Shown here piece after piece: positions 2,118-27,865 of a stretch of DNA of 38,694 bases; within the stretch, counting starts at the first letter, position 1; every line of letters begins with the position of its first letter. The notes beneath the pieces are model-generated. The model was not told the DNA's origin, did not search any database, and saw only the letters and a list, made by a program, of their open reading frames with translations. This DNA comes from an uncultured Bacteroidales bacterium (lineage in GTDB: Bacteria > Bacteroidota > Bacteroidia > Bacteroidales > UBA4417). Made by a program: the position numbers and the translations under genes. The stretch lies in the NCBI GenBank assembly GCA_903946925.1, contig CAJAXK010000228.1, positions 1 to 38,694 of the forward strand, written 5' to 3'.

Positions 2118-2347
2118 TGATTCTACTCCGAAAAGTCTTTTTTTGCCACCAAGGCACAAGCCTCTAATTTTGAGAACATTCCGAAAAGTCTTTTTTCGCC
2201 ACAAAGGCACAAAGCCTCTAAGGTTCACAAAGTTTATAGTACTGATTAACAATACTCTGTGCACCTCTTTGTTCTCTGTGCTGCTTCGGCAGGCTCAGCA
2301 CATCGCTCAGTGGTTTTCTTTTTTTTAGGGTTTTCGGAGTGTACATA
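2118..2347 (+). mobile_element. MITE-like element, copy A
   Basis: This is one of seven related elements in the window. The ends are degenerate (TGATTCTACTCCGAAAAG on the left, TTTTCGGAGTGTACATA on the right) but are flanked by a perfect 4-bp direct repeat, TTTA (2114-2117 and 2348-2351). The left arm is present twice (2118-2160 and about 2168-2216), as if one element end had been duplicated or inserted into another. The 20-bp internal module TGCTTCGGCAGGCTCAGCAC lies at 2282-2301. There is no coding capacity. The apparent open frame across it is the GC-poor repeat itself. Confidence 0.8.
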
Positions 2348-2380
2348 TTTATTAATCAACAATTTCACATTAAATAATTG

Positions 2381-2536
2381 CTAATCCCCAATAACCACTA
2401 ACTATTTCCCATTAACCATTAACTATTTCCCATTAACCAATAACTAATCCCCAATAACCATTAACTATTTCCCATTTCCCATTAACTATTTCCCAATAAC
2501 CATTAACCAATAACTATTCCCCATTAACCATTAACC
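2381..2536. repeat. Word-like simple repeat (CCATTAACCATTAACTATTTCC type)
   Basis: The segment consists of irregularly shuffled short words: CCATTAAC, TAACTATTTCCC, CCAATAAC and TAATCCCCA. It fills the space between element A and the stop codon of the minus-strand acetyltransferase gene. It resembles imperfect slippage-type expansion rather than a clean tandem array. I see no gene, hairpin or promoter in it. Confidence 0.75.
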
Positions 2537-2539
2537 ACA

Positions 2540-3658
2540 TCACAATTCTTTCCTGAAAACCCTGAACCTTTTTAATACCGGTATTTTCAAACGTTCCATT
2601 TCGGAACGCATTTTAAGGTTTGTTTCAAGTATCAGATGGGTTTCCACATCCTTATAGCCTGCTGCCCTTGCAGATTCAATCAGGCTGATGCCCATAACCA
2701 CCTCAAGTCCTGTGCCTTGGTAATCGCGACGGATCGCTCCAAGCATCAAATCCAATTGTTTTGTTTTCCTCGATTCGTACAATATTTGAAAAATCCCTAT
2801 TGGGAATAAATGGCCTTTCGATTTTTGAATCCCAATTGTAAGGTTTGGAATTGCTACCACAAAGGCAACAACCTCACCTGCTTTTTTAATTATCTTTACA
2901 AAACTTGGATTTATAATTGGGAGGTAACGCGAGGCAAGTTCCTGAATTTCGGTGTCGGACATGGGCACAAAGCCATACAAATGCCCGTAAGTTTGGTTCA
3001 CCAACTGCAAAACCGGTACTATATATGGTTTTAACTCCTTGCGTGAGGTAAATTCGATCAATTCGGAACTGATGCTGAAATTAGAGCGTTTTTGGATTCG
3101 GTAATACAATTCGGGAAGGGCCAGATTTACAGGGAATTTATACGTCATGCAATCTACTTCTTTCCCAAAACCCTCATTTTCAACTAATTTAACAATATAC
3201 GGAGGGTTACAAGCCGAATCAATCAAGGGCAAATGTTCGAAACCTTCGATCAGCAAACCTTGAATATCTTTATCTGAAAAACCAAAAGGCCCAACAATCA
3301 GGTTTTTCCCTTTCTGTTTCGCCCAATTCTGGATAAATTCAAATAAGTTATGGGCAACTCTCTGATCGTCAATACAATCTAAATATCCAAAACGCGCCGA
3401 ATTTTCTTTCCGCAATAAATTGTACGTTTTATGGATAATGCCCATAATCCTGCCAACAGGTTTTCCACCTTGTACGGCAAGAGCCATTATAGTATCGCAG
3501 GAATCGAACTGATGGTTTTTCTTTGGGTTGAAAAAATTCCAATCGTCGGCATAAATAGTTGGCATCCAATTATTTTCGCCTTTATGGAGTTTAGCAGGCA
3601 AATGGATAAAAGTCCGTAATAATTTTCGGGAATTTACTTCTATAATATCAACTTCCAT
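2540..3658 (-). CDS. GNAT-like N-acetyltransferase (tandem paralog 2)
   Basis: A 372-residue soluble protein of a large family usually annotated as GNAT N-acetyltransferase-like. The sequence shows FIHLP (17-21), an NPKKNH segment near residue 45, the acyl-CoA-fold strand/loop GRIMGII (69-75), IVGPFGF followed by QGLLIEGFEH, and a C-terminal half with LGAIRRDYQGTGLE, which resembles the second GNAT acetyl-CoA-binding region. Substrate is unknown. It lies 35 bp downstream of a paralog of exactly the same length (3694-4812), probably in one transcript. The ATG at 3658 has no clear Shine-Dalgarno site, as is usual in this phylum. Its stop lies directly next to the word-like repeat. Family call is fair, biochemical role unknown. 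Confidence 0.8.
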   Translation of the reverse strand: MEVDIIEVNSRKLLRTFIHLPAKLHKGENNWMPTIYADDWNFFNPKKNHQFDSCDTIMALAVQGGKPVGRIMGIIHKTYNLLRKENSARFGYLDCIDDQRVAHNLFEFIQNWAKQKGKNLIVGPFGFSDKDIQGLLIEGFEHLPLIDSACNPPYIVKLVENEGFGKEVDCMTYKFPVNLALPELYYRIQKRSNFSISSELIEFTSRKELKPYIVPVLQLVNQTYGHLYGFVPMSDTEIQELASRYLPIINPSFVKIIKKAGEVVAFVVAIPNLTIGIQKSKGHLFPIGIFQILYESRKTKQLDLMLGAIRRDYQGTGLEVVMGISLIESARAAGYKDVETHLILETNLKMRSEMERLKIPVLKRFRVFRKEL

Positions 3659-3693
3659 GCTTTGGTTTGTTTTAGGATACAGGCTTTGGTTTC

Positions 3694-5139: not shown

Positions 5140-5162
5140 CAAATTAAACATTTAGAAACCAC

Positions 5163-7556
5163 ATGAACATACAATACATTGGGGAACACCTGCTGGCCGG
5201 ATATTTGGGCCGGATATTTATTTGGGCCAGTTTTTTATCGCTCACAATTTCAGCCGTCCTATACATTTATGCCATCAACAAGCCTAAAAAGCAGGCGTTT
5301 TTCAGCAAACTGGCAAGCAATTTTTTTTGGTTTCATTTCATAGCCCTGCTTGGGGCCATAGCATCATTGTACTACCTTATCGGCAACCATTATTTCGAGT
5401 ATTCGTATGTATATCAATACTCATCGGTTGATATGCAAAAGAAGTTTATAATCTCCTGTTTTTGGGCTGGCCAGGAAGGCTCCTACTTGGTTTGGGCATT
5501 TTGGCAGGGTATTATTGGCCTAATGTTGCTGCGCTCGCTCAAGGATTGGAAAAACTGGGTGATGCCGGTATTTGCAACCGGACAGTTTTTCCTGATTTCG
5601 ATGGTTTTGGGGCTGGACTTAGGCAGTTTCAGCATTGGAGGAAGCCCTTTTGAATTATTGCGGAATATGCCATCCAGTAGCGGCGAAGAATTTTTTAAAG
5701 ACCCAAATTATTTGAAATTCCTTACCGATGGCAACGGGCTTAACCCTTTGCTCGAAAATATTTGGATGATAATCCATCCACCATCACTTTTCCTTGGTTA
5801 TGCAGTAGCAATTGTGCCGTTTAGTTTTGCTATTGCATCGCTTTGGCGAAAGGAATACCATTCGTGGCTAAAGCCAGCTATTCCCTGGACCATTGCCGCT
5901 GTTTTAACATTAGGAATCGGCATTATACTTGGCGGACGTTGGGCTTACGAATCACTTACCTTCGGAGGTTTCTGGGCCTGGGATCCGGTTGAAAACGCAT
6001 CGCTCGTTCCATGGCTGCTGTTGATTGCAGCCCTTCACAGCATGATAATTACTGCCAAAAGGTTCAACACGTATGCAACCACTTATTTTTTAACAATATT
6101 GGGTTGGTTCTTCGTGATGTATGCCACTTATTTGACCCGCAGCGGGGTACTTGGCGAAACATCCGTACACTCTTTCGGGGCAAATGCATTATCAACACAA
6201 ATGGTAATTTTCACAGCACTTTTTCTAATCCTTCCATCTATATTTATACTTGTAAGGAGAAAAAGCTTCGCTAAAAAAGAAAGCGACGAAGTAATGACCC
6301 GCGAATTTTGGATGCTCATTGGAGCAATTGTGGTCCTTCTTTCGGCATTTCAAGTTATAGCAACCACTTCTATACCAGTTTTTAATAAAATATTCGGTAC
6401 CGAAATTGCGCCTCCAATCGATAATATCAACTTTTACAATACATGGCAAATGCCCTTCGCAATTGTAATTGCTTTAGGTATTGCAATTAGCCAGTATTTG
6501 TGGTACGGTTCAAACGATGTAAAGAAATTCCTGAAAAGTATATCAATTGCCACAGTAATTGCTCTTGTGCTTACAGTATTGATTGCCTGGGGCGACCATA
6601 TTACCGGAACAAGCCGTTTAGTACTGCTTTTCAGTATTTTATTGGGATCGGTTGTTTCAGTTGATTTTGTGATCCGTTATGTAAAGAAAACATCCAATGT
6701 TGCTGGTGCCCTTTCGCATGTTGGTTTTATGCTTTTCTTGTTGGGGGTTGTGCTTGCATTCAGCAATTCGCAGGTTATTTCAATCGAATCATCACCCAAT
6801 GGCGCTGATTCCGAAACGCGCGATAATATTATCCTGGTAAAAGGAATTGGTAAGCCTATGGGCAGATATATGGTAACTTACACCGATGCCAATACAATTG
6901 GTCGCGAAACCTTTTATCAAGTTGATTTTGTGAAAATGAAGGATGCCGGAACCGGTAAAGTTGATTTCACTTTACACCCATCACTGAATGTGAACCAAAG
7001 GATGGGGAATGTTTACAATCCTGATACAAAGCATTTTATTGATAAAGATATTTATACTTTTTTGAGTTTTGCCCAACAAACTGGCGGAAATGCCGATGCC
7101 GAAGGTTACAGCAAAAGTGGCGAACAACCAATGAACGTTAAGGACACGCTGATGCTTGGGCGTAGTTTTGTTATTCTGGATGAAGTGAAAACCTCTATGG
7201 TAAATGATGATGTGAATAATGCCAGCATATCAGCCCATTTCAACATAATAAGCATGAATCAGGGTAAAGTGGAAACATCCGTAAAATATGAAATTGTAAA
7301 TGGAGAGTTGAAACAAACTGATGGGCTTATTGCGCCATTGAACCTAAAACTCCGTTTCGAAGGCGTAGCAACCGATTCCAAAGCTATAAATATTGGGGTG
7401 TATGAAAAGCAGCAGGACTACATAGTGATGAAAGCGATTATTTTTCCGTATATGGCGGTATTGTGGTTGGGTGTTGTGGTTTTGTTCAGTGCGCTAACTT
7501 ATGCCATTATGCGCCGAACCATGCGCAAAACCAATGAATTGGAAGTAAATTCATAA
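5163..7556 (+). CDS. ccmF: Cytochrome c maturation haem lyase CcmF (CcsA/CcmF family)
   Basis: A 797-residue polytopic membrane protein. The tryptophan-rich WWD haem-handling segment is at 266-284 (LTFGGFWAWDPVENASLVP), with flanking conserved histidines in IIHPPSLFLGY (H205), H292 and SGVLGETSVHSF (H336). The early SCFWAGQEGSYLVW segment (98-111) is also typical. About fifteen hydrophobic segments surround a large soluble region near residues 540-750, and a last membrane helix lies just before the C-terminus. In the family, CcmF transfers haem from CcmE to apocytochrome c at the periplasmic face. The other ccm genes (ccmA-E) are not in this window, so they must lie elsewhere. It is followed at 33 bp by the DUF2520 gene and may be co-transcribed with it. 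ATG start at 5163. Confidence 0.93.
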   Translation: MNIQYIGEHLLAGYLGRIFIWASFLSLTISAVLYIYAINKPKKQAFFSKLASNFFWFHFIALLGAIASLYYLIGNHYFEYSYVYQYSSVDMQKKFIISCFWAGQEGSYLVWAFWQGIIGLMLLRSLKDWKNWVMPVFATGQFFLISMVLGLDLGSFSIGGSPFELLRNMPSSSGEEFFKDPNYLKFLTDGNGLNPLLENIWMIIHPPSLFLGYAVAIVPFSFAIASLWRKEYHSWLKPAIPWTIAAVLTLGIGIILGGRWAYESLTFGGFWAWDPVENASLVPWLLLIAALHSMIITAKRFNTYATTYFLTILGWFFVMYATYLTRSGVLGETSVHSFGANALSTQMVIFTALFLILPSIFILVRRKSFAKKESDEVMTREFWMLIGAIVVLLSAFQVIATTSIPVFNKIFGTEIAPPIDNINFYNTWQMPFAIVIALGIAISQYLWYGSNDVKKFLKSISIATVIALVLTVLIAWGDHITGTSRLVLLFSILLGSVVSVDFVIRYVKKTSNVAGALSHVGFMLFLLGVVLAFSNSQVISIESSPNGADSETRDNIILVKGIGKPMGRYMVTYTDANTIGRETFYQVDFVKMKDAGTGKVDFTLHPSLNVNQRMGNVYNPDTKHFIDKDIYTFLSFAQQTGGNADAEGYSKSGEQPMNVKDTLMLGRSFVILDEVKTSMVNDDVNNASISAHFNIISMNQGKVETSVKYEIVNGELKQTDGLIAPLNLKLRFEGVATDSKAINIGVYEKQQDYIVMKAIIFPYMAVLWLGVVVLFSALTYAIMRRTMRKTNELEVNS

Positions 7557-8384: not shown

Positions 8385-8906
8385 ATGTCGAATTACAAGG
8401 AAAAACTTTTAAAAGTAAACACATTCATTTTTGATTACGATGGTGTGCTTTCGGATGGGTCGTTGCTATTGACCAGTGATGGCGATGCCCTTCGCTCAGC
8501 AAACGTGAAAGATGGGTATGCCCTGCAACTCGCGAAGAAGAAAAACTATAGGATTGCGGTAATTTCAGGCGGCTATTCCGAATCAATGAAACGTCGTTTC
8601 GAGAGCTTGAAAGTTGAAGATGTTTTTCTTGGCGTTGACAAAAAAATAGATGTTTATACCGATTACCTGAAAGCACATAACCTGGAAAATGAAAATGTCC
8701 TGTTTATGGGCGACGATATCCCTGACTATGAAATTATGCTTGCGGTTGGCGTACCTACTTGTCCTGCTGATGCATCCGAAGAAATTAAAAAAATCTCCTG
8801 CTATATTTCCCATTTGCCCGGTGGAAAAGGTTGTGTTCGCGATGTAATTGAGCAAGTGCTTAAAGTACAAGGAAAATGGATGAATGATGATGCTTATCAT
8901 TGGTAA
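8385..8906 (+). CDS. kdsC: KdsC-type HAD phosphatase (KDO-8-phosphate phosphatase)
   Basis: A 173-residue, cap-less HAD protein of usual KdsC length. Motif I is FDYDGVLSDG (16-25, nucleophile D17 and acid/base D19), motif II is the SGG segment at 61-63, and motif III is GDDIPD (109-114). The family dephosphorylates 3-deoxy-D-manno-octulosonate 8-phosphate in the cytoplasm for lipopolysaccharide core synthesis. Some relatives act on other sugar-acid phosphates, so the substrate is inferred. Motif I has Tyr where DVDGVLTDG is more common. The gene is tightly placed behind the DUF2520 gene. Its stop is followed 12 bp later by the heptamer repeat array, which interrupts the gene row. Confidence 0.85.
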   Translation: MSNYKEKLLKVNTFIFDYDGVLSDGSLLLTSDGDALRSANVKDGYALQLAKKKNYRIAVISGGYSESMKRRFESLKVEDVFLGVDKKIDVYTDYLKAHNLENENVLFMGDDIPDYEIMLAVGVPTCPADASEEIKKISCYISHLPGGKGCVRDVIEQVLKVQGKWMNDDAYHW

Positions 8907-8918
8907 TGTGGGAGGTTT

Positions 8919-9058
8919 GGATTGCGGATTGCGGATGTCGGATTGCGGATTGCAGATTGCGGATTGCGGATGTCGGATTGCGGATGTCGGATTGCGGATG
9001 TCGGATTGCGGATGTCGGATTGCAGATTGCGGATTGCAGATTGCAGATTGCGGATTGA
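8919..9058. repeat. Array of twenty 7-bp units (GGATTGC / GGATGTC / AGATTGC)
   Basis: The array is exactly 140 bases, with no length slips. With A = GGATTGC, B = GGATGTC and C = AGATTGC, the order is A A B A A C A B A B A B A B A C A C C, closing with GGATTGA. Because 7 is not a multiple of 3 and no unit makes a stop, all frames stay open, which produces spurious ORFs of SAIRNPQ type on the minus strand. It lies between kdsC and the prenyltransferase gene. The next 95 bases (9060-9154) hold nothing recognisable. Confidence 0.95.
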
Positions 9059-9154
9059 TGGAAGATTAGGATTGATTTTAAAAATGAAATTTGGAAATGG
9101 ATAATGAAACCAAACAAGGATTGATATTAAATTTGAATTGCCTTTATATCCTAG

Positions 9155-9237
9155 CCACCCATCAACCATTCACCCCATCGCCCCATCGCCTATCAACCCA
9201 TCAACCCATCCACCCATCAACCTAACCTAACAACCCA
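9155..9237. repeat. Word-like simple repeat (CACCCATCAACC type) running into a start codon
   Basis: Repeated pieces of CCCATCAACC and CCCCATCG occupy the 80 bases before the prenyltransferase gene and end in CAACCCA, directly before its ATG. The segment therefore replaces whatever ribosome-binding region the gene would normally have. No purine-rich site is present. Confidence 0.75.
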
Positions 9238-11438: not shown

Positions 11439-11587
11439 ACCGTAAGGCTATATTCGGAAAAAACATTTTTTTGTGTAAGAAAATTCAAGCACCTAAAAAG
11501 TTTTATGAAAGGAAATTATATTCCATCAAGCACGTGTAAGCCATACCATTTTTCAGAGACAGCATCCAAAATAAACAGCAGCATCTA

Positions 11588-12457
11588 TTGAGGTCGCTTA
11601 GTTTTATAATCAACTCGAATCTTTTCATTGCTTTTGCAGCGGTTACGCTCACAATGGCAACACAAGTTCAGTTAGATGAGAAACCCCAATTCCAATTTTA
11701 TATTGCTGCAATATTTTTTGCCACTTTATTAGAATACAATTTTCACAGGTTAATTTCAGTAAACAATAACAAAGAAGCCTTTCCGGTTGAAAAAAACAAT
11801 TGGGCTTCGGGACATCTGCCAATAATCAAAGTATTGATTTTGAGCTCTATTGCTGGTTTGGTGTTTTCAATGTTATTCGTTTCAATCAGCATAATTATAG
11901 CGTTTGGCCTGTTATCTGTTTTTACTTTTTTTTATTCGGCCGAAAACTTTGGCAAGAACAAAATACTGTTCGGATACAAAGGGATTACGGGAATGAAAAC
12001 TATAGCGATAGCCTTTGTTTGGGCAACGATAACCGTATATTTACCTGTTTTACATTTAGATACTGGTTTTGATACTGTAAAAATTTTTCTGCTTTTTGCC
12101 CAGCGCTTTGCTTTTATTTTTGCCATTGCTATCCCATTTGATATCCGCGATATGGACACCGATTCGCGTGCAGGTACAAAATCACTCCCAATTGTTTTTG
12201 GCAGTAGGTTATCTGTTCAAATTGCTAATTTTGCCTTGTTGCTTTCGCTAATTATTTCAATTGTTGAATACTTTAGATCCGAACAGCCTTGGGTGTTTTT
12301 GGCTTGCCTCCTTTCAGTTTCGTTTACATCCATAGTTATCAATAGCCGGAAAATAAAAAACATGCCATTTTACTATCATGGCATTTTGGATGGATGCCTG
12401 GTTTTATATGGCTTGCTTATTTGGTTAAGTTACTATTTAGGTGGATTTCCCAACTAA
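11588..12457 (+). CDS. Divergent UbiA-like membrane prenyltransferase homologue
   Basis: A 289-residue protein with about eight hydrophobic helices. The second UbiA aspartate motif is clear (FDIRDMDTD at 184-192, followed by the typical GTKSLPIVFG), but the first motif (NDxxDxxxD) is replaced by YNFHRL around 50-55 with no aspartates. Either substrate binding differs or the protein has another function in the UbiA superfamily. The first membrane helix requires the TTG at 11588 as start, since the frame has no ATG between the upstream stop (11537-11539) and codon 23. It is 149 bp from the lipoprotein gene. Its stop lies directly at the 4-bp target duplication of MITE copy B. Superfamily membership is likely, activity uncertain. 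Confidence 0.75.
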   Translation: MRSLSFIINSNLFIAFAAVTLTMATQVQLDEKPQFQFYIAAIFFATLLEYNFHRLISVNNNKEAFPVEKNNWASGHLPIIKVLILSSIAGLVFSMLFVSISIIIAFGLLSVFTFFYSAENFGKNKILFGYKGITGMKTIAIAFVWATITVYLPVLHLDTGFDTVKIFLLFAQRFAFIFAIAIPFDIRDMDTDSRAGTKSLPIVFGSRLSVQIANFALLLSLIISIVEYFRSEQPWVFLACLLSVSFTSIVINSRKIKNMPFYYHGILDGCLVLYGLLIWLSYYLGGFPN

Positions 12458-12461
12458 ACTT

Positions 12462-12687
12462 TGAGTCCACTCCGACAAGTTTTTTTTGCCACAAAGCGGT
12501 GTGCTGAGCCTGCCGAAGCAACACAAAGCCTCTAAGGTTACTCGCTATTGCTTATTTTAACGGAGTTCGTGATATCGCTTCGCTAAGTTCACAAAGTATA
12601 TAACACAGAATAACAATTCTTTGTGCCCCTTTGTGTCATAGTGTCTTAGTGGCGTTTCTTCATTTTCAGGTTACCGGAGTGGACTCA
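12462..12687 (+). mobile_element. MITE-like element, copy B
   Basis: The element is 226 bp, starting TGAGTCCACTCCG and ending in its exact complement CGGAGTGGACTCA. It is flanked by the 4-bp direct repeat ACTT (12458-12461 and 12688-12691), and the left repeat abuts the stop codon of the upstream gene. The internal 20-bp module GTGCTGAGCCTGCCGAAGCA (12501-12520) is the exact reverse complement of the module in copy A. A second module, GATATCGCTTCGCTAAGTTC, is at 12571-12590. The 165 bases to the next gene hold only AT-rich leader. Confidence 0.88.
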
Positions 12688-12852
12688 ACTTTGTTGTATT
12701 TTAGCATTAGCCGTAATTTCTTGCTTTTTTTTGTTGGTTGAAGCGAAATGTGGTTAATTTTGACATCATACATCTTTCGGGTTGGTGAACTTTAATATGC
12801 AATTGCACTGATTTTATGATGTGATTTCATCAAAACCAAAAAATTCATTTGT

Positions 12853-15483
12853 ATGAAAACTACTTTTTCCTGTTTGGCTCTTGTACTCCTACTTTCGTTC
12901 CTGTGTGGTTCAGCCTTAAAAGCCCAAACAGGGCAGTCGCCAGAGGCATTTTTTGGGTTTACACCAGGTTCCGATGGCAACCTTTTTGATTACAATCAAC
13001 TAATTGCCTACTTCAAGCAGTTGGACGAATCTTCGCCAAGGATTCTATTAAAAGAAATTGGCCTGTCGCCAATGGGCAATAAAATGTATTTGGCATTTGT
13101 GTCGTCGCCACAAAACCTCCAAAAGCTCGACAGCTATAAGGAGATAAACCGAAAACTTGCCTTGGATTGGAAAATGACTGATAGTGAAAGGGATTCACTT
13201 GTTGACGAAGGGAAAGTGTTTTTGTTGGCAACCTTATCCATGCACTCCAACGAAGTTGGCCCAACACAAGCTTCGCCCCAAATTGCATATTCGTTGGCTA
13301 ATACCCAAGATCCTGAACTGCTTAAATGCCTTGATAATGTGGTTTTTATGATTGTTCCAAACCACAATCCGGATGGGATGCAGATGGTGGTGGAAAATTA
13401 CCGTAAATACAAAGGCACACCTTACGAAGGCTGTTCGTTGCCAGGGCTTTACCATAAATATGTTGGCCACGACAATAACCGCGATTTTGTAACACTTACG
13501 CAACAGGACAACAAAGTAATTGCTGCCATTTACAATAAGGATTGGTTCCCACAGGTCATGGTTGAAAAGCATCAGATGGGATCAGGCGGCGTGCGGTATT
13601 TTGTCCCACCCATGAGTGATCCGATTGCCCAAAACGTGGACGAAGGGATTTGGAACTGGTCGTGGATTTTTGGTTCTGCTATGGCTAAAGATTTGACTGC
13701 CAATCAATGCCCCGGAGTTGCACAGCATTATCTTTTCGACGATTATTGGCCGGGTTCAACTGCCACTGCCGAATGGAAAAATATTATAGGGCTGTTAACC
13801 GAAGCTGCCAGCGTTAATGGGGCCACACCTCTGTTTATCGAGAAAAACGAAATTAAAGTAATAGGAAAAGGTTTGGGCGAAAATAAAAAGGGGATTAACA
13901 TGCCTTTGCCATGGGAAGGCGGATGGTGGCGGCTTTCTGATATAGTGCGTTACGAAATGCATTCCACATTTTCGCTTTTAAAAACGGCATCGGCCAACAG
14001 TAAAGAAATCCTTCAATTCAGGAACAAATTATGCCGCACACAGGTGGCCAAAGGCAAAACCGAGGCTCCTGCGTATTTCGTGCTTCCTGCGCAGCAACAC
14101 GACAAAAGCGAATTGGTGGCTTTGGTAAACTTGCTGAACGAACACGGTGTACTTGTTTATAAACTAAACTCCGACGTATTGTTGGCCGATAAAATGCTGC
14201 GAAGTGGCGATATTGTTGTGCCGCTTGCCCAACCTTTCAGGGCTTTTGCCAAAGAAGTGATGGAAGCACAAACCTTTCCTGCCCGGCATTATACGCCAGG
14301 TGGCGAATTGATTGATCCTTACGATATTACCAGTTGGTCGCTGCCATTGCACAAAGGCTTGCACAGTTTTGAAATACCTGCTGTTGTTCAGGAATTGGAA
14401 AACAAAATTGAGCCTGTTACAATTCCTTATTCCCTTAACACAACATTGGCTGGGCACGAAAATGGTTTTCTTGTTTTCGATGCCTCGGAAAACGAAAGCT
14501 ACAAGGCGGCATTTGAATCCCTGTCTTTAGGTTTAACCGTTAAAAGGACAGATAAAAATACCCTTGTAAACGGCCAATCAATTAACGCCGGAAGTTTTAT
14601 TGTTTCAGGATTTACTTCAAAATCATTTTCGGTATTGACCGATTCCCTTTCAATTTCACCTTTGTGGTACGAAAAAGAACCAGATACTTCTGCGCATGAA
14701 ATAAGTATGCCACGTATAGCTTTGGTTGAAAGCTGGTTCCATGATATGGATGCCGGATGGACAAGGTTTATTTTCGATCAATACAAAATCCCTTTCACTT
14801 TGTTGAGGCCAGCAGACTTTGCGAAAAAGGCTTTTGAACTGGATTTCGATGTTGTAATCTTTCCCGACGAGGATAAAAATGTATTGATGGAAGGGAAAAC
14901 CAAAGCTGGCAACGACTATTACATGGCCAATTATCCACCTGAGTTTACAAAAGGAATGGGTAAGGATGGCTTTCAGAAAGTGTTGAAATTTATCAAATCA
15001 GGTGGTACTGTGTTGTCGTGGGGCAATTCAACAGATCTTTTTGAAGGGCTTATGACAATAAAATTAAGCGATACCGAAAATGAGGAATTCAAGTTCCCAT
15101 TTACCAATGTTGCCGACAAACTTAAAAAATCAGGTTTAAATTGCCCCGGCTCGTTACTTAAAGTCAATCTTTTGCCCAACCACCAATTAACATTGGGCAT
15201 GAAAAGTGAAGCCGGAGTATTAACAACTGCCGAACATGTTTTTCAAACTTCGCTTCCTTCATTCGATATGGATAGAAGGGTGGTTGCAAGCTTCCCTGAA
15301 ACGCATTGTTTGCTAAGCGGATTATGCCAAAAAGAAGAACTTTTAGGTAATTATGCCACCATGGTTTGGCTTAGAAAAGGAAAAGGAAACCTCGTAATCT
15401 ATGGCTTCAACCCTCAATTCAGGGCTTCAACCGCTGGTGTTTATAAATTGCTGTTTAACGGATTATTGCTGCAAAATCGGTAA
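12853..15483 (+). CDS. Secreted M14-family zinc carboxypeptidase-like protein
   Basis: An 876-residue protein with a signal peptide (cleavage probably after ALKA, about residue 24). The M14 fold is shown by the zinc-binding pair in MHSNEVGP (H131, E134), VPNHNPDGM (169-176), NNRDF (208-212, substrate-binding Arg) and EKHQMG (third zinc ligand H240). A TEAAS segment holds a likely catalytic Glu (E317). The C-terminal half (about 450-870) is not peptidase. It includes VVIFPDE and SGGTVLSWGNS strands that resemble a class-I amidotransferase-like Rossmann fold found at the end of this family. A periplasmic or extracellular metallopeptidase acting on peptides is inferred. It stands alone between MITE copies B and C. 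Confidence 0.88.
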   Translation: MKTTFSCLALVLLLSFLCGSALKAQTGQSPEAFFGFTPGSDGNLFDYNQLIAYFKQLDESSPRILLKEIGLSPMGNKMYLAFVSSPQNLQKLDSYKEINRKLALDWKMTDSERDSLVDEGKVFLLATLSMHSNEVGPTQASPQIAYSLANTQDPELLKCLDNVVFMIVPNHNPDGMQMVVENYRKYKGTPYEGCSLPGLYHKYVGHDNNRDFVTLTQQDNKVIAAIYNKDWFPQVMVEKHQMGSGGVRYFVPPMSDPIAQNVDEGIWNWSWIFGSAMAKDLTANQCPGVAQHYLFDDYWPGSTATAEWKNIIGLLTEAASVNGATPLFIEKNEIKVIGKGLGENKKGINMPLPWEGGWWRLSDIVRYEMHSTFSLLKTASANSKEILQFRNKLCRTQVAKGKTEAPAYFVLPAQQHDKSELVALVNLLNEHGVLVYKLNSDVLLADKMLRSGDIVVPLAQPFRAFAKEVMEAQTFPARHYTPGGELIDPYDITSWSLPLHKGLHSFEIPAVVQELENKIEPVTIPYSLNTTLAGHENGFLVFDASENESYKAAFESLSLGLTVKRTDKNTLVNGQSINAGSFIVSGFTSKSFSVLTDSLSISPLWYEKEPDTSAHEISMPRIALVESWFHDMDAGWTRFIFDQYKIPFTLLRPADFAKKAFELDFDVVIFPDEDKNVLMEGKTKAGNDYYMANYPPEFTKGMGKDGFQKVLKFIKSGGTVLSWGNSTDLFEGLMTIKLSDTENEEFKFPFTNVADKLKKSGLNCPGSLLKVNLLPNHQLTLGMKSEAGVLTTAEHVFQTSLPSFDMDRRVVASFPETHCLLSGLCQKEELLGNYATMVWLRKGKGNLVIYGFNPQFRASTAGVYKLLFNGLLLQNR

Positions 15484-15551
15484 AACGTAAATTTCGATAA
15501 TCAAGGTTTTTTTGAACGAAAGAGTTGAGTAACGATTCCATACTCTATACT

Positions 15552-15748
15552 TGAGTCCACTCCGAAAACCCTAAAAAAAGAAAACCACGGAGGCACAGAG
15601 GACACAGAGTCACACAGAGTGTTGTCAGTCAGCACTATAAGCTTTTTGAAACTTAGCGAAGCGATATCACGAACTCTTTTAAAAATAAGAAATTGTGAGT
15701 AAACTTAGAGCCTTTGTGGCAAAAAAAAGACTTATCGGAATATACTCA
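15552..15748 (-). mobile_element. MITE-like element, copy C (inverted)
   Basis: The element is 197 bp, inverted relative to copies A, B, D, E and F. The left end is TGAGTCCACTCCGAAAAC and the right end is degenerate (CGGAATATACTCA). Flanking tetramers are TACT and AACT, three of four bases equal, as expected for an old duplication. It carries the GATATCGCTTCGCTAAGTT module in reverse (15650-15674), matching 25 bases of copy B exactly. The rest of the 15484-15843 spacer has nothing recognisable. Confidence 0.82.
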
Positions 15749-15843
15749 AACTTAAGATTTCCTTAAAACAATAGGCAAATTGAACAAATAAGGCTCAAAA
15801 TCCTTGTTTAACTGGTACATAATTTAACATTAACAAAAGACCT

Positions 15844-16884: not shown

Positions 16885-17054
16885 ATTATTGGGTAGTGGG
16901 TGGTGAGGAGGCTAATGGTTATTAGTTGTTGGTTATTGGTCTATTGTGGACGCTGAGTCTAAGTGTTATTGGCTGATGGTTATTGGTTAGTTAAAGTGTT
17001 TTAGGCACTTAAGAGCACTTTAGGCACTTTAAATACTTTAGGCACTTTAAAACT
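16885..17054. repeat. Word-like simple repeats (GGTTATTGG and ACTTTAGGC types) in a convergent spacer
   Basis: The left half repeats TTATTGGT, GGTTATT and GGTAGTGGGTGG. The right half repeats ACTTTAGGCACTTTAAA, continuing to the stop codon of the minus-strand kinase. These are two unrelated words side by side between convergent genes. I see no classic terminator, although the A/T-rich direct repeats could pause transcription from both sides. Confidence 0.7.
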
Positions 17055-18311
17055 TTAGGTGTTTATAGTAAAATAAAAAATTGCACCTTTCCCTTTTTCC
17101 GACTCGGCCCAAATACTGCCATTGTGTTTTTCTATAATACGCTTTACGGTACTCAAACCGACCCCTGTTCCTTGGAATTCGTTGTTAGAATGTAAGCGGA
17201 TAAAAGGACTGAAAAGCTTTTCTGCTTTTTCCATATCAAACCCGGCACCATTATCGGCAATAAACAATGTAGTAATTCCTTCCAATTCAACTTTTCCGAA
17301 CGAAATCTCTGCATTTTCGACCTTGCCGCTGTATTTCCATGCATTGCCCAAAAGGTTGTTTAACACAACTTGTATCAATTTTTGGTCGGCATTCACAACA
17401 ATATCCTCCTGAACATTCACATTAACAATCCTTTCGGGGTTGCGCATTTTTAAATCAGCAACAATTTCGGAAGCCATTTTGCTTAAATCAACGCTTTCCA
17501 GAGTAATATCTGCAAGGCCTGAACGTGAATATTGCAAAAGATCATCAATCAACTGAGCCATCTTATACCCCGATTCGAGAATCCATTGAATATAGTTTTT
17601 TGCAACATCGTCCATATTTTTACTGTCCGACAACAACAAAGTGGCAAAGCCGACAACCCCGCTAAGAGGAGACCTCAAATCGTGCGAAACGGTCCGGGCA
17701 AAAGCTTCCAGTTCCTGGTTTGCCGAAATAAGGTTTTCGTTCGATCGCTGCAGTTGCAACTGGGCTTCTATCAAATCTTCGTTGCGGTGAATAGCAGCTT
17801 CGTAAACGGAAAGCAAAAGGTCGAGAATTTGTTTTTTATCAGAATTTATTTGATACTTAGTACCCTGGAACATAATTTCGATAACCATATCGCCACTTCC
17901 GATCCGGCGCATTTGGTTGTTAGCCAACAAGTAATAAATTCGCGATAACAAATACTGCTCATCGTAGGGCTTAGTGATAAAATTATCGGCACCTGCTTGC
18001 AAACCCTTAATAATATCGAGTGGATCGCTTAGGGAAGTAAGTAAAATTACAGGGATGTCGTTTAGGTCTGGGTCGGATTTAATCTTAGTGCAAAATTCAT
18101 AGCCATCCATCCCGGGCATAATAATATCACTGATTATCAGAACGGGTTTTCGTGCCTTTGCTGCTTGTAATGCATCGGCCCCATTACTGCATATTTCGCA
18201 GTTGATATCGTTGGTATCAAGGAAATGTTTTAACCTTTTAGCCTGAACCGGGGAATCCTCGGCAGCTAAAATATAGTGGTCGCCAAGATTTAGATGAATG
18301 GATGATTGCAT
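17055..18311 (-). CDS. REC-HisKA-HATPase hybrid kinase, output protein of the chemosensory cluster
   Basis: A 418-residue soluble protein with no membrane segment. An N-terminal receiver (about 12-128) has the acidic pocket AAEDS, phospho-acceptor D62 (SDIIMPGMDG) and K114. A short linker/coiled coil (155-205) leads to the HisKA dimer with H210 (SHDLRSPLSG), and then a HATPase with N323 (NNLLGNAWKYSG), DNGAG (353-357) and GTGVGLS (381-387). All catalytic residues are present. It starts 6 bp after the cheB stop, so it is very probably co-translated with the cluster. In Wsp systems this position is held by the REC-GGDEF cyclase WspR. Here, phosphorylation by CheA would instead be expected to control a kinase whose own target is unknown. 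Confidence 0.92.
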   Translation of the reverse strand: MQSSIHLNLGDHYILAAEDSPVQAKRLKHFLDTNDINCEICSNGADALQAAKARKPVLIISDIIMPGMDGYEFCTKIKSDPDLNDIPVILLTSLSDPLDIIKGLQAGADNFITKPYDEQYLLSRIYYLLANNQMRRIGSGDMVIEIMFQGTKYQINSDKKQILDLLLSVYEAAIHRNEDLIEAQLQLQRSNENLISANQELEAFARTVSHDLRSPLSGVVGFATLLLSDSKNMDDVAKNYIQWILESGYKMAQLIDDLLQYSRSGLADITLESVDLSKMASEIVADLKMRNPERIVNVNVQEDIVVNADQKLIQVVLNNLLGNAWKYSGKVENAEISFGKVELEGITTLFIADNGAGFDMEKAEKLFSPFIRLHSNNEFQGTGVGLSTVKRIIEKHNGSIWAESEKGKGAIFYFTINT

Positions 18312-18317
18312 GTTTTT

Positions 18318-19379
18318 TTATTTTATTAAGTCAGTAATTTCTTTTATCATGTCGGTTGGGCTCATTATTTTGCTTGCTGCACCTAATTTAACAGCCTCGC
18401 CGGGCATGCCAAAAACAAGGCAGCTTTGCTCGCTTTGCACTATTGTATGTGCCCCAATTTCGTATAAGGTCTTTAATTCAGCTGCTCCATCCTTTCCCAT
18501 TCCCGATAAAAGTACTGCAATTAGGTTTTTCCCATAAACCTTGGCTGCGCTCTGAAAAAGAATGGCAACTGCTGGCCGGAGTCCTTTAATTGGCCCCTCG
18601 TTAATAACTGCAATAACGCCTTCGGACCTCACAGAAAGATGCCTGTCGCCAGGCGGCAAATATACATTTCCCGGAAGAAAAGGTTCTCCATTTACTGCGA
18701 TATGTACAGGTAATTTGGAAAACGTGTTTAGCCATGAGCAAAATCCTTCGGCAAAATTTGCATCTATATGCTGCACAATTAAAACCGGCAAACTAAAATC
18801 GGGTGGCAGGCCTGTTAATATTGTCCTTATTCCTTCGGGGCCACCAGCAGAAGCACCAATTACCAAGACTTTAAATTCCCTTGACCCTTGCATAGCTTTT
18901 GGCGCTGGATATCCTGAAAGTGAAGGTGGGGGAATTTTAAAACCATCAGTATTTTTACGCCTCACCACCTTTACCTCCGACATTGCTTTGAGCATATTCA
19001 AATATTGGCGAGAGGATTGGGCAAACTTAGGATGCCCAGGTCCAAAGGGTTTAGGCAAAATTGTTACTGCACCAGCATCCAAAACTTTTATCGCCAATTC
19101 CACTTCCGAAGTCTGGTAAAAACTGCTTACAATAACTATTGGTACAGGTGTTTTTTGCATGATGTTCATGGTGGCTTCAACGCCATCCATTACAGGCATG
19201 TGTATATCCATACTCACTACATCTGGGCTATAAAGCGAAACAAATTCAATTGCCTGCCTGCCATTGTTGGCAATACCGACCAATTTAAAACGGCTGTCGC
19301 TTAATATCAAACCTTTTAGCAAATTCTGGTTCACCAGGCTATCTTCAACAATCAGAACTTTAATTACACCTTCAGTCAT
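18318..19379 (-). CDS. cheB: CheB: receiver plus protein-glutamate methylesterase
   Basis: A 353-residue protein from the ATG at 19379. The frame extends 23 codons further upstream, but those codons do not belong to the receiver fold. The receiver has acidic VEDS (11-14), phospho-acceptor D58 (SMDIHMPVMDG) and K110. A linker (about 130-165) precedes the methylesterase domain with the catalytic triad S177 (GASAGGPEG), H204 (VQHIDANFAEG) and D297 (SGMGKDGA). It removes methyl groups from chemoreceptor glutamates when phosphorylated by CheA. It corresponds to WspF in a Wsp-type layout. It is separated from cheA by 368 bp that include MITE copy D, so its expression may differ from the upstream genes. 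Confidence 0.95.
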   Translation of the reverse strand: MTEGVIKVLIVEDSLVNQNLLKGLILSDSRFKLVGIANNGRQAIEFVSLYSPDVVSMDIHMPVMDGVEATMNIMQKTPVPIVIVSSFYQTSEVELAIKVLDAGAVTILPKPFGPGHPKFAQSSRQYLNMLKAMSEVKVVRRKNTDGFKIPPPSLSGYPAPKAMQGSREFKVLVIGASAGGPEGIRTILTGLPPDFSLPVLIVQHIDANFAEGFCSWLNTFSKLPVHIAVNGEPFLPGNVYLPPGDRHLSVRSEGVIAVINEGPIKGLRPAVAILFQSAAKVYGKNLIAVLLSGMGKDGAAELKTLYEIGAHTIVQSEQSCLVFGMPGEAVKLGAASKIMSPTDMIKEITDLIK

Positions 19380-19535
19380 GCTCGTAAGTATAAAACCGTT
19401 ACCCCTGCCTGTATTTAAGTTAAAATGCAAAATCCAAATACAAATCAAGACCTACATTTAATAAACCTCGAAATCCCAACAGGGGAATATCCTATTTTTA
19501 TTAAGCCGTAAAGATACCTAAAAAGAAATATAATT

Positions 19536-19735
19536 TGAATCCACTCCTAAAAGTCTTTTTTCGACACAAAGTGTTGCACTGAGTGGCCAATGAGCTTGCC
19601 GATGTGCCTGCCGAAGTGGTGCTAAATTGTTAAGTCCAATAAGTTTATAGTGTTGATTAACAATGCTCTGTGTACCTTTGTGTTCTCAGTGGCGCCGTGG
19701 TTTTCTTTGTTTTTAGGGTTATCGGAATGGACTAA
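19536..19735 (+). mobile_element. MITE-like element, copy D (inside the chemosensory cluster)
   Basis: The element is 200 bp. Ends are TGAATCCACTCCTAAAAG and TTATCGGAATGGACTAA, both slightly decayed. Flanks AATT and ATGT no longer match clearly. The internal module is altered and partly doubled (GAGCTTGCCGATGTGCC, then TGCCGAAGTGGTGC). It lies between cheA and cheB, whose genes run on the minus strand. A transcript crossing it could fold the two arms into a long hairpin. Confidence 0.8.
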
Positions 19736-19747
19736 ATGTTCTAATTC

Positions 19748-22195
19748 TTAAATTAATCTACGTATAGTTTCAACCAGGTTACTTTGCTCGAAACTACTTT
19801 TGACAATATAGGCATTTGCCCCTAAATCCATTCCACGTTGCCTGTCGTCGGCCGATTCCAAAGCAGTTACCAGAACTATTGGCAAATCAGAAAGATTCTT
19901 GTCTTCACGTATTTTGGCCGTTAGCTCAAAACCTGTCATGTGTGGCATTTCGATATCTGATACTACCAAATCAAATTTCTCTTCCTGTAGAAAGCCATGG
20001 GCTTCCTGACCGTCAACTGCGGTTTTTACTGCATAGCCTGCCGATTCCAGGAAATTGCGCAGCATTGAACGTATTGTAATAGAATCTTCGGCAACCAGTA
20101 TGTTTTTTTGCTGTACTTCTGTTTTTGTGCCATCGGGTGAGTCGTCGGCAACAAATTCAATGGTTTTGGTAGTATGTGAGGCCGATTCAATAAGTTCGGG
20201 TATGTGCAAAATGGTTACAATGCGGCCATCGCCCAACAAAGTGGCTCCTACAATATTGGTAACATGCAGTAATTGAGGGCCTAAATCCTTTATCATTCCT
20301 TCGTGTTCGCCTAACACATCATCAACTACAAGAGCAAGTTTTTTTTGCGCCGCCGATATTAAAAGCACCCGTAAAAGTGTTTCCTTATTCTTTTTCATCC
20401 GCCTTACGGGCAAATTCAAAACATCGGAAAGGCTTACCAAAGCTATAGTCTCGTGGTTGTAAATGATTGTTTTCTTTGATTCAACAGTCTTGATGTCAGC
20501 AATATTTACCCGAAATGCTTTTATAACAACCGTGGTTGGGATTATAAAATATTGTTCCGAAGATTTTATCAGGATGCCTTTAAAAATGGCTAATGTTTGC
20601 GGAAGCAAAATGGTAAATGTGCTTCCTTCGCCAGCAACACTTTCGAGATGTATGTTACCGCCAAGTTTTACCACTTTTTCGGCTACAATTGCCATTCCAA
20701 GCCCACGACCCGAAATATCGGTTATAAACGGACTGGTGGAAACCCCGGAACCAAAAATAAGCATAGCCATTTCCTTATCCGACATGAATTGAGCATCTTC
20801 AGGTTTTATCAGCCCTGTTTTTATGGCTGAGCTGATAACTTTTTCCCTTTGTATCCCTCTGCCATTATCACTTATCTGCAACGAAATATTTCTATCGGCA
20901 TCTTGTTTTATCTGGATTTTAAGAACCCCTTTTGCTTCTTTCCCCGCTTTTACCCGGGCTTGAGGTAATTCAATTCCATGATCAATACAATTCCTGATTA
21001 GATGGATAACTGGATCTTTAATTTCTTCGAGGATTCGGCGGTCAATTTCAATTTCGCCCCCATCTATTTGAAGATCAATTTCTTTGCCGTATTCCTTGCT
21101 TAAATCCCGGACAATTTTCGGGACAATTACCAACAATGACGAAAAAGGATAGAGCAAGGTTGTCTTGATATCTATCAACAAATCATCAATCATACGGGAA
21201 GTAACCCTTTGAAAACGGGCAAGTTTTTTTTCAAAACCAAAAAGATCTTCTTCGTGCTTTTTCCTAAAATCTTTATCCCTACCTAAAAACTCAATTACAT
21301 CATCGCCCAATTCGCTTTTATTGATACCAGTAAAAAAAGGATTGCTGTTTGAAATTTTACGGCTCCATGCTGAATAAGCATTTGCATTATCTTGTAATTC
21401 AACAACATAATGGGCTAAAGCTGATTTTATTGCAATCATTTCCTCAGCCTGGCGCAACAAATTATACAATTTTGAAGTGGCAACCCTAACAGTTTCTTTA
21501 TCCGAAATACGTTCAACTGGCTTCTCGATGGGTTTTTCTATAGGTTTTCCGGTTGGTTTATCCACCAAAATTTCAGGTTTTACATCCGGAACTTTCGCCT
21601 CAATTGGATTTGCTTCAATTTCTGCTGGTTTAATCTCTATTACCGCAATACCGGCCTTTGGTTCTAAATTGGCAAGTAAAGCACCTGGCAATGCTTGGTC
21701 GATTGGTGGATCAACCACAGGATTAGCTTTTTCGACTAATTTTAGAGAGTTCAAGGAAATTTTTGGTTGTGGTTTAACATTACGCGAAATACCTCCCAAA
21801 CTTTTAACCAAATTCGTCACATCGGAGGGTTGTACTTTCTTTTGCTTCGAATCTATTTCACTGAGCATCAAATCCAAAGTATCCGAGGCTTTGTACAGCT
21901 CATCAAACGAGCTCGGGGTTAGTACAAGGTTTTCTTTTTTCAATTCATGAAAAACGCTTTCCATGCCCATGCAAAGCCGTTCAATATCAAGTTGGTTAAC
22001 AGCCCTAGCAGCTCCTTTCAGGCTGTGTATTTCACGAAAAATAACCTCAACTTGTTTTTTGATGATAGTTGGGTCTGTATTTTTTTCTATATCCAACAAC
22101 CCACTAACAATAGCTTGCTGGTGTTCAACTGCCTCTATTTTGAAATCGCCCAGCAGTTCAAGTAAAAACGCTTCCTGATCCTTGTTCATCGCCAT
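19748..22195 (-). CDS. cheA: CheA-type histidine kinase with C-terminal receiver (WspE/FrzE-like)
   Basis: An 815-residue protein in CheA order. P1 Hpt has phospho-acceptor H57 in FREIHSLKGAARA. A flexible Pro/Lys-rich linker (about 130-235, with KPIEKPIEKPVE) follows, with no obvious CheY-binding P2. Next come a dimerisation helix pair, the P4 ATPase (HLIRNCIDHGIE, DNGRG, SGRGLGM), a P5 CheW-like domain, and a C-terminal receiver with VAEDS and phospho-acceptor D747 (SDIEMPHMTG). The fused receiver is typical of alternative-function systems such as Wsp and Frz, where it modulates kinase output. The start codon directly follows the mcp stop (TAA then ATG), indicating coupled translation. It receives input from the MCP/CheW complex at the membrane. 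Confidence 0.95.
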   Translation of the reverse strand: MAMNKDQEAFLLELLGDFKIEAVEHQQAIVSGLLDIEKNTDPTIIKKQVEVIFREIHSLKGAARAVNQLDIERLCMGMESVFHELKKENLVLTPSSFDELYKASDTLDLMLSEIDSKQKKVQPSDVTNLVKSLGGISRNVKPQPKISLNSLKLVEKANPVVDPPIDQALPGALLANLEPKAGIAVIEIKPAEIEANPIEAKVPDVKPEILVDKPTGKPIEKPIEKPVERISDKETVRVATSKLYNLLRQAEEMIAIKSALAHYVVELQDNANAYSAWSRKISNSNPFFTGINKSELGDDVIEFLGRDKDFRKKHEEDLFGFEKKLARFQRVTSRMIDDLLIDIKTTLLYPFSSLLVIVPKIVRDLSKEYGKEIDLQIDGGEIEIDRRILEEIKDPVIHLIRNCIDHGIELPQARVKAGKEAKGVLKIQIKQDADRNISLQISDNGRGIQREKVISSAIKTGLIKPEDAQFMSDKEMAMLIFGSGVSTSPFITDISGRGLGMAIVAEKVVKLGGNIHLESVAGEGSTFTILLPQTLAIFKGILIKSSEQYFIIPTTVVIKAFRVNIADIKTVESKKTIIYNHETIALVSLSDVLNLPVRRMKKNKETLLRVLLISAAQKKLALVVDDVLGEHEGMIKDLGPQLLHVTNIVGATLLGDGRIVTILHIPELIESASHTTKTIEFVADDSPDGTKTEVQQKNILVAEDSITIRSMLRNFLESAGYAVKTAVDGQEAHGFLQEEKFDLVVSDIEMPHMTGFELTAKIREDKNLSDLPIVLVTALESADDRQRGMDLGANAYIVKSSFEQSNLVETIRRLI

Positions 22196-25794: not shown

Positions 25795-25803
25795 GGTAAA
25801 ATC

Positions 25804-26271: not shown

Positions 26272-26379
26272 TTCAAATATTTTTAGGTTTTAAACTTGAT
26301 TCAATTTTTCTTTTTTCGTTTGCCCCGCAATACTTTTCCTTACGGAGAATTAAAAAAGCAAGGTTTGAAATTGAAATGA

Positions 26380-26532
26380 TGAGTCCACTCCAAAAAGTCT
26401 TTTTTCGCCACAAAGGCACCAAGCCTCTAAGTTTCACAAAGTTTATAGTGCTGATTAACAACACTCTGTGTACCTCTGTGTCCTCTGTGCCTCCGTGGTT
26501 TTCTTTTTTTTAGGGTTTTCGGAGTGGACTCA
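26380..26532 (+). mobile_element. MITE-like element, copy E (shortest, best preserved)
   Basis: The element is 153 bp: TGAGTCCACTCCAAAAAG at the left and TTTTCGGAGTGGACTCA at the right, with perfect flanking duplication ATGA (26376-26379 and 26533-26536). Inner arms GCCACAAAGGCAC and GTGCCTCCGTGG are a second, imperfect inverted pair. It lacks the internal modules seen in longer copies and so defines the minimal unit. An apparent RRHRGHRGTQ-type reading frame on the minus strand is an artefact of its CTCTGTG periodicity. Confidence 0.9.
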
Positions 26533-26730
26533 ATGATACAAATTATCTTTCCGCCGGACTTTTGAGAACGAGTTGTTTTGAATTTGTGCAACTGTATGCT
26601 TAACCGTAGATTGTTCAAATAAAATTTCGTCAGGCAACTGAACAAGGGAATTTTGCAGAACTACTAAGTATCTTGAGTTTGGAGTAAAAGGAAGGTAGTT
26701 GAGGAGACGGAGATGGGGAGAAAACAACAA
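26530..26730 (-). other. Short open frame ended by MITE copy E; doubtful gene
   Basis: A 66-codon frame with a TTG start. Its stop TGA is the first triplet of the inserted element (GGACTCA read in reverse). If the element and one copy of the ATGA duplication are removed, the frame continues for eleven codons to a TAA. Composition in the middle (SRYLVVLQNSLVQLPDEILF) looks protein-like, but the first codons are a CTCCCCATCTCC-type simple repeat and I recognise no family. The rest of the 26537-26811 spacer holds nothing else. Confidence 0.2.
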
Positions 26731-26811
26731 AATTGTTATTGGTCTCTTGATTTAATAAACAAAGGCACTAAAAGTAATCAAAATTAAAGTGATTTTTAAT
26801 TAATCAATAGA

Positions 26812-27045
26812 TGAGTCCGATCCTTAAAGTCTTATTGCGCCACAAAGGCACAAAGGCACAAAGCTACCAAGTTTACTCATAATTGCTTATTTTAAAGGAA
26901 TTTGTTTCGGCAGGCTCAACACCTCGCGTGATATCGCTTCGCTAAGTTCACGAAGTTTATAGCGCTGATTAACTGCACTCTATGTTCCTCTGACTTCTCA
27001 TTGCCTCCGTGGTTTTCTTTTTTTGGGGTTATCGGAGAAGACTCA
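26812..27045 (+). mobile_element. MITE-like element, copy F
   Basis: The element is 234 bp, the longest and most diverged copy: left end TGAGTCCGATCCTTAAAG, right end TTATCGGAGAAGACTCA. Flanks TAGA and AAGG no longer match. It contains both internal modules in forward orientation: TTCGGCAGGCTCAACAC (26906-26922) and GATATCGCTTCGCTAAGTTC (26930-26949). It lies 280 bp from copy E. The next 195 bases, to the small repeat protein gene, contain no other feature I can support. Confidence 0.78.
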
Positions 27046-27240
27046 AAGGTTCATGTTTTAATTGTACCACCAATAAATGCAAATTGTTTTTGGAAGTCGT
27101 AATTCAAATATCCATTCCATTAGCTGCCGATGCTACAAAAATAGTTTCTCAAAATAAGATTTGGCCAGAATTAGCCTTTTCAGCCCGAAAGCAACCGTTT
27201 GTGGCATATTTATATTTACCTTTATCTAAAATTTCTGGCA

Positions 27241-27585
27241 ATGAAAAAGCTGTACTTTTTATTTCTATGTGGTTTACTGTTTTACAGCTCCTTTTCAGCG
27301 AAAGCCCAAAAAGTTTTTAGCTGTAATAATCGCTATGATGCTGATATAAAAGTGTTTGTGGTCGAGAACAAATATGATGCCGACTTATTGGTTTACAAAG
27401 TAAAAAATGCCTACGATGCAGAAGGGAATAAAGGCCTGTGGTATTTCTGTGAAAATAAATATGATGCAAAAAAATCAATTTGGTTTGCCGAAAATAAATA
27501 TGATGCCGACTTGTTGATTTGTTTTGTCGAAAACAAGTACGATGCCGGATGGAGGGAAAAGGAAAAGATGCACTTGATTTATTGA
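27241..27585 (+). CDS. Small secreted YDA-repeat protein (DUF6150 / septoil-knot family candidate)
   Basis: A 114-residue protein from the ATG at 27241 (an upstream GTG/TTG extension would spoil the signal peptide). The signal peptide ends near AKAQ (residue 23). The mature 90 residues are six YDA motifs at residues 32, 45, 58, 74, 87 and 100. The spacing is exactly 13, except for one 16-residue step where EGNKGLWYF is inserted. The repeat core is ENKYDADLLVYKV. From memory, this pattern is that of DUF6150, renamed for a predicted 7(1)-knotted fold. I am fairly confident of the family and cannot verify the fold. Function is unknown. It stands alone between MITE copies F and G. Confidence 0.78.
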   Translation: MKKLYFLFLCGLLFYSSFSAKAQKVFSCNNRYDADIKVFVVENKYDADLLVYKVKNAYDAEGNKGLWYFCENKYDAKKSIWFAENKYDADLLICFVENKYDAGWREKEKMHLIY

Positions 27586-27664
27586 GCAAAAGAAAGAAAT
27601 CTTGCTTTTGGTCTTACGGCTCAGTTTTTCATTGGACAAATTGATAGTGGAAAAGATTCAACCT

Positions 27665-27865
27665 TGAGTCCATTCCGATAATCTAAAAATGAAGAAACGC
27701 CACTAAGCGGTGTGCTGAGCCCGACGAAGCAGCACTATGACACAAAGGTTCACAAAGCATTATTATTCAATGTTATAAACTTAGTTACACTTAGAGTCTA
27801 TTTGCCACTTCGGCAAGCTCAGTGTAACACTTTGTGGCTAAAAAAGACATTTCGGATCGGACTCA
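27665..27865 (-). mobile_element. MITE-like element, copy G (inverted)
   Basis: The element is 201 bp, in the same inverted orientation as copy C. Ends are TGAGTCCATTCCGATAA and TTTCGGATCGGACTCA, flanked by the perfect 4-bp duplication ACCT (27661-27664 and 27866-27869). It holds two module variants: GTGCTGAGCCCGACGAAGCA (27712-27731) and GCCACTTCGGCAAGCTCAGT near 27803. The remainder of the 27586-27980 spacer is AT-rich and featureless. Confidence 0.86.

Follow-up and report, generated by a model that had tools for sequence, protein, structure and literature searches.

The 38,694-nucleotide contig CAJAXK010000228.1 of an uncultured Bacteroidales bacterium (assembly GCA_903946925.1), analyzed here at its full length and called the window, carries seven dispersed repeats of 150-235 bp. 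We identify them as copies of a miniature inverted-repeat transposable element (MITE) that is very probably moved in trans by an IS1182-like (DUF772) DDE transposase acting on the same ends. In the host draft genome (G000; 6.17 Mb in 498 contigs), the window is labeled contig C228. The evidence comes from the ends, the flanking duplications, empty sites in a relative, a target preference, and full-length elements that combine the same ends with a transposase gene and 4-bp duplications.

The terminal inverted repeats of the MITE are 13-20 bp long (TGAGTCCACTCCGAAAAGTC). An earlier note, made from the letters of this DNA alone, had described a transposed MITE-like family with 4-bp target duplications. 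On rechecking the sequence, we found all seven copies at the coordinates and with the ends and flanking tetramers that it gave (Table 1): four tetramer pairs are exact, one agrees at three of four bases, and two are unmatched, with two copies on the minus strand and the remaining five on the plus strand. Across the host genome, the 13-base end occurs 337 times with no more than one mismatch (174 + 163), and the same pattern read backwards, used as a control, was found 0 + 0 times.

Flanking bases were tallied in the window and 20 further stretches, covering 405,885 bases of the 6.17 Mb; because the stretches were picked for holding ends, this tally samples copies and not the genome. Ends lying 60-700 bp apart were paired when they had at most four mismatches over both, which gave 34 copies. 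The window copies at 2118, with an exact target-site duplication (TSD), and at 26812, with none, were left out, having five end mismatches each. Identical flanking 4-mers were present in 13 of the 34 copies (shuffled mean 1.47, maximum 5 in 1,000 shuffles), well above chance in the very comparison that the earlier note had proposed, while identical 3-mers were found in 0/34 and 5-mers in 3/34 (mean 0.41, maximum 3). At least three of four flanking bases were equal in 22/34 copies, compared with a mean of 7.3 and a maximum of 15 in 5,000 shuffles. The target is palindromic, an A preceding the TSD in 28/34 copies and a T following it in 27/34. The elements measure 139-300 bp in the host genome and 55-290 bp elsewhere, have terminal inverted repeats but no transposase gene, and show TSDs both in this tally and in the one across genomes given below.

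The region 11500-20100 of the window was searched in 16 genomes of the genus, and syntenic regions at 70-85% identity were found in G002. Three of the seven window copies lie at sites that can be aligned there, and all three sites are empty. At 12462, the aligned flanks are 278 bp apart in the window and 50 bp apart in G002, where 48 bp would be expected. The copies at 15552 and 19536 are cleanly missing, the length in G002 equaling the joined flanks plus one tetramer (by counting aligned letters at 15552 and by eye at 19536, where the flank spacing is 141 against an expected 139). The G002 synteny stops at window position 26285, before the copies at 26380, 26812, and 27665, and the G002 contig ends at the 2118 site. 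A rough fit to an empty site was also seen for 15552 in G010 (179 bp, 173 expected) and for 19536 in G011 (182 bp, 164 expected). Together with G009, G008, and G015, these make five further genomes of the genus aligned at one site each, and in none of them did the gap hold a TGAGTCC end with three or fewer mismatches. Thus, the duplication tallies and the empty sites in a relative, the latter also a comparison that had been suggested beforehand, support a family that transposed with 4-bp target duplications. Repeat expansion by replication slippage or recombination, with no transposition involved, would suit an interior of short degenerate words with tandem arrays nearby, but the concentration of the TSDs at 4 bp and the two orientations of the copies argue against it, and the clean empty sites contradict it, leaving it a negligible probability.

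The same ends were also found beyond the host genome. When 15 other genomes of the genus were searched for the 13-base end, allowing one mismatch, there were 91 in G002 (control, 1), 10 in G011 (control, 1), and 8 in G013 (control, 3), the remaining 12 having 0-4 such ends against controls of 0-4. A scan of named genomes found the exact 20-base end in at least 110 stretches, by record title mostly Bacteroidota; among the matches listed, these included Bacteroidales, Saprospiraceae, Balneolales, Lutibacter, and Chitinophagaceae, with a few labeled Cloacimonadota, Firmicutes, Chlorobiota, Melioribacteraceae, and Gemmatimonadota. From the 111 ends among these matches, we obtained 46 distinct elements in which a partner end lay no more than 500 bp away and the two flanks were present, while 64 ends were without them. 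An exact 4-bp TSD was present in 33/46 (shuffled mean 2.48, maximum 9 in 2,000 shuffles), and 3-mers and 5-mers, at 1/46 each, were at chance level; because the 46 were chosen by one perfect end, they are probably biased to young copies. The target preference recurred in the 33 elements with exact TSDs, with an A before in 31/33 and a T after in 32/33.

Some stretches holding the 20-base end contain more than a MITE. Among those listed, L173:4477-6340 is a full element of 1,864 bp with matching ends and a 559-amino-acid frame (P0001), its TSD being unreadable at a contig end, and L138:1023-2320 and L130:23-830 are shortened or broken insertion sequence (IS) copies with both ends. P0001 matches DUF772 (PF05598) over its cut-off, and its best NCBIfam model is IS1182 (NF033551; E 2.5e-30). 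Residues D161, D357, and E462 are invariant between P0001, P0002, and an annotated IS1182 transposase and are the putative catalytic acidic triad. At E 1e-3, P0001 matched 10/395 genomes of the phylum, only G211 strongly, and 24/393 of the order, many of them weakly. We then sought the ends in 14 transposase loci (L274-L286 and L192). A matching pair 1.79-1.93 kb apart was found in seven (L274, L275, L277, L279, L281, L282, and L192), four of which have an exact 4-bp TSD, namely, L277 (1,925 bp; AGAT), L281 (1,794 bp; AAGA), L282 (1,831 bp; ATGA), and L192:1381-3221 (TAGA); L274, L275, and L279 have none. Such pairs flank DUF772 transposases, which links the ends to the IS1182-like group instead of IS3.

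This result bears on the mobilization by an IS3-family (IS407-type) transposase that the earlier note had guessed. The IS407 group does have TG...CA ends and 4-bp duplications, but both features are common to the IS1182-like group as well and are not diagnostic. The full-length elements with the same ends encode a DUF772/IS1182-like transposase, with no rve domain (IS3 orfB) between the ends, and none of 17 rve loci in 12/16 genomes of the genus is bracketed by such ends, although several are cut by contig ends. The sole rve-type gene of the host genome has no such end with four or fewer mismatches in its 1.8-kb locus, which starts at the contig start. The guess is therefore unsupported, and we consider an IS3-family mover highly improbable. 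A viral vehicle was tried and rejected, the exact 20-mer occurring in 0 viral_contigs stretches and P0001 relatives being confirmed there in 0/2 stretches. Matches were found in one partial phage record among 50,697 and in 24 plasmid records among 72,556, all below 60% identity.

Several observations weigh against movement by an IS1182-like transposase, or against parts of it. P0001 falls short of the equivalog cut-off of NF033551 (105.8 bits, with 270 required), which is why we name the transposase only IS1182-like. No matching pair of ends was found in 7 of the 14 transposase loci, three of which are only 29-30% identical, while L276 lies at a contig start. No relatives of P0001 at E 1e-3 were found in the host genome or in G002, and the sole DUF772 match of the host genome at this level, L185 (G000:C259:15788-16012), has an in-frame stop and no TGAGTCC end with four or fewer mismatches at its locus. 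An active parent was therefore not seen in the lineage, although the draft assembly may hide one; the full-length IS with the same ends that the earlier note had wished to find exists in other genomes, but no intact one in the window's own. An exact 4-mer is absent from 21 of the 34 copies in the host genome. The 15552 site is longer than an empty site in G009, G008, and G015 (370, 332, and 1,099 bp, with 211, 216, and 221 expected). Finally, when the end-trimmed interiors of 79 of the 80 elements (46 + 34; L084 was too short) were compared with eight parent interiors, there were only three weak matches (E 0.002-0.004). The interiors thus do not resemble internal deletions of these parents.

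In the mechanism that we propose, a DDE transposase of the IS1182-like group would bind the MITE ends and excise or copy the element. Its joining to a palindromic A/ANNT/T target would involve a 4-bp stagger and so account for the 4-bp duplication. The interior would be passenger DNA, in the host genome mainly a gene-less CACAAAG/CTCTGTG arm pair resembling the arms of the GxxExxY genes described below. Mobilization in trans is what we infer from the shared ends, and a parent would formerly have been present in the lineage and now be lost or unassembled. Intergenic repeats of this class, abundant in Bacteroidota with 337 ends in one genome, are thereby linked to a transposase group, and the ends, the target rule, and the parents can be used for annotating such repeats in other genomes.

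Grouping the 79 interiors by blastn at 1e-4 sorted them into 20 unlinked groups, 7 with at least two members and 13 single; because links between short interiors may have been missed, the number of groups is at most 20. The largest group contains all 34 copies of the host genome together with 11 elements from eight other assemblies. Other repeat types were seen inside the same ends, for example, CCCCTTTAGGGG in L100 and L151 and CCTGAAAGGG in L140, and the word classes used for these interiors were crude, 30/46 falling into "other." In the host genome, L049:7270 and L044:13570 have a TGAGTCC end, but inside they consist of CCTGAAAGGG/CCCACGG palindromes, which are a dispersed repeat of another type. 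Interior hairpins stronger than z < -3 were found in 25/44 elements from other genomes (2/46 were too short) and in 2/34 in the host genome (median, -1.8; control median, -0.1, with 0/34), a mixed result, so that strong hairpins do not characterize the family as a whole.

The arms that fill the copies of the host genome also occur around genes of the GxxExxY family (PF13366), which has a match in 60/118 genomes of the phylum. The names GxxExxY, PDDEXK_3, and PF13366 were scarce in the PMC literature searched. Four such genes of the host genome (L031-L034) lie amid CACAGAG-type words, and genes of the family often stand closely between inverted arms that consist of degenerate words of 8-11 bases (CACAGAG, CACAAAG, CACGGAT, and the like). 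We compared the upstream 250 bp with the reverse complement of the downstream 250 bp at 33 loci, i.e., the four of the host genome (the fragment L035 being left out) and 29 among the matches listed (L242-L270). The score was at least 30 in 20/33 loci and in 1/130 shifted controls from the same loci, and at least 36 in 14/33 loci versus 0/130 controls; L033, whose upstream part was only 74 bp long, had a low score of 12. The left arm of the MITE core was matched by the L034 arms and the right arm by the L033 arms (best E 1e-8).

It could be argued from this match to two GxxExxY loci of the host genome, and from the arms bracketing such genes well above controls, that the CACAAAG/CTCTGTG core arms are the actual mobile unit, moved by the GxxExxY nuclease-fold protein with the TGAGTCC ends hitchhiking. 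However, the duplications, the insertion junctions, and the empty sites are all located at the outer ends, and unrelated interiors are found elsewhere within the same ends. Moreover, each of the 39 core-word clusters in the 406-kb sample has a TGAGTCC end (two or fewer mismatches) no more than 260 bp away, compared with 8% of random positions, in a count whose stricter end definition and random-position control replaced a looser version. We regard mobility of the core arms as improbable. The inner CTCTGTG/CACAGAG arms, to which the earlier note had also drawn attention, do occur outside the family, around GxxExxY genes without the ends, but they are one of many interiors and not the mobile signature, which is the ends. 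GxxExxY genes as the parent were likewise rejected, the host loci L031-L034 being without TGAGTCC ends. L032 has one end match with three mismatches, and a MITE end lies 1.4 kb from the GxxExxY gene fragment L035.

Returning to the MITE with IS1182-like ends, our reading is that it picked up a gene-less arm pair, an order of events that we infer. More tentatively, the ends of one IS1182-like group may act as a phylum-wide shuttle that captures dispersed palindromic repeats (CACAAAG arms, CCCCTTTAGGGG, and CCTGAAAGGG), and the CACAAAG/CACAGAG arms may be the termini of a separate, undescribed GxxExxY gene cassette, in which case the window MITE would be a mosaic of two mobile systems; we put this forward as a possibility that could well prove wrong. 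Of all these findings, the mosaic with the GxxExxY arms most deserves further study. Repeats with CACAGAG-type arms had been only a vague impression from many environmental genomes; through their link to GxxExxY genes, they can now be tested for association with a protein family.

REP and BIME repeats, which depend on RAYT transposases and for which no TSD is expected, are likewise short, intergenic, inverted, and present in many copies; in contrast, the family described here has TSDs and DDE-type parents. Cardinium is a member of the Bacteroidota. According to PMC9769881, its MITECca01 is a MITE of about 240 bp with many copies, ends like those of a parental IS, and no transposase gene. The present family is alike in these respects, whereas its parent is IS1182-like (there, ISCca4 of the IS982 family), and one end pair encloses many unrelated interiors in many genomes. 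A table entry in PMC3281130 lists ISPse1 as "IS1182, 1653, 16/16, 4," in which we read the 4 as the duplication length. The parents here share with the IS1182 family a single DUF772-type DDE transposase, a similar size, short inverted repeats, and a 4-bp duplication, but they score under the NCBIfam cut-off, as said above, and have their own ends, TGAGTCCACTCCG. According to PMC5678879, IS1272 of the IS1182 family replaces stem-loops, and some IS1182 members are cited as targeting palindromes. The parents here belong to the same broad family and likewise have a palindromic target, A/ANNT/T, with a simple 4-bp duplication instead of stem-loop replacement. IS1182 is unmentioned in the main text of a MITE review (PMC10969869). 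In the PMC literature searched, ISfinder being outside the search, we found no description of the MITE family; the 13-base end itself was absent from that literature, as was any joint treatment of IS1182, Bacteroidetes, and MITE. We consider the family genuine and new, yet of a known kind.

TABLE 1 Copies of the MITE in the window
Copy	Coordinates	Strand	Length (bp)	Ends	Flanking tetramers (left/right)
1	2118..2347	+	230	Degenerate	TTTA/TTTA, TSD (2114-2117 and 2348-2351)
2	12462..12687	+	226	13-bp ends perfect on both sides	ACTT/ACTT, TSD
3	15552..15748	-	197		TACT/AACT, 3/4 bases equal
4	19536..19735	+	200		AATT/ATGT, 2/4 bases equal
5	26380..26532	+	153		ATGA/ATGA, TSD (26376-26379 and 26533-26536)
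6	26812..27045	+	234		TAGA/AAGG, no TSD
7	27665..27865	-	201		ACCT/ACCT, TSD

The copies are intergenic, as had been proposed: two open reading frames overlap copy 1 (1987-2328, 113 amino acids) and copy 6 (27009-27320, 103 amino acids), both being mechanical calls with no Pfam match in either. Copy 1 has 3/13 mismatches in its right end and an extra left end nested at 2171. A UbiA-family gene ends immediately before copy 2, its stop codon being followed directly by the left ACTT. Copy 4 is flanked by CheB-like and CheA-like genes, both on one strand, and may therefore sit within a chemotaxis-type transcript. At the orthologue of the copy 3 site in G009, G008, and G015 (L209, L210, and L212), there are 120-880 bp of surplus intergenic DNA, which may be other insertions or plain divergence.

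No RNA family reached its gathering score in the window. Several repeats other than the MITE were seen there. Short words (CCATTAACTATTTCC, GGATTGCGGATTGC, and CCCATCAACC) are repeated in tandem at 2347-2567, 8884-9076, and 9150-9234, between genes or at gene ends, and a short repeat of the TGGTTATTGG type is at about 16900-17060. In the 11500-20100 search, query positions 5492-5561 matched other genus members at numerous short stretches. Two 39-base direct repeats, 74% alike, are found at 27451-27528, close to where a DUF6150 gene ends. One protein of the window contains SprB repeats, which, like the occurrence of the end sequence mainly in Bacteroidota, points to that phylum for the window.

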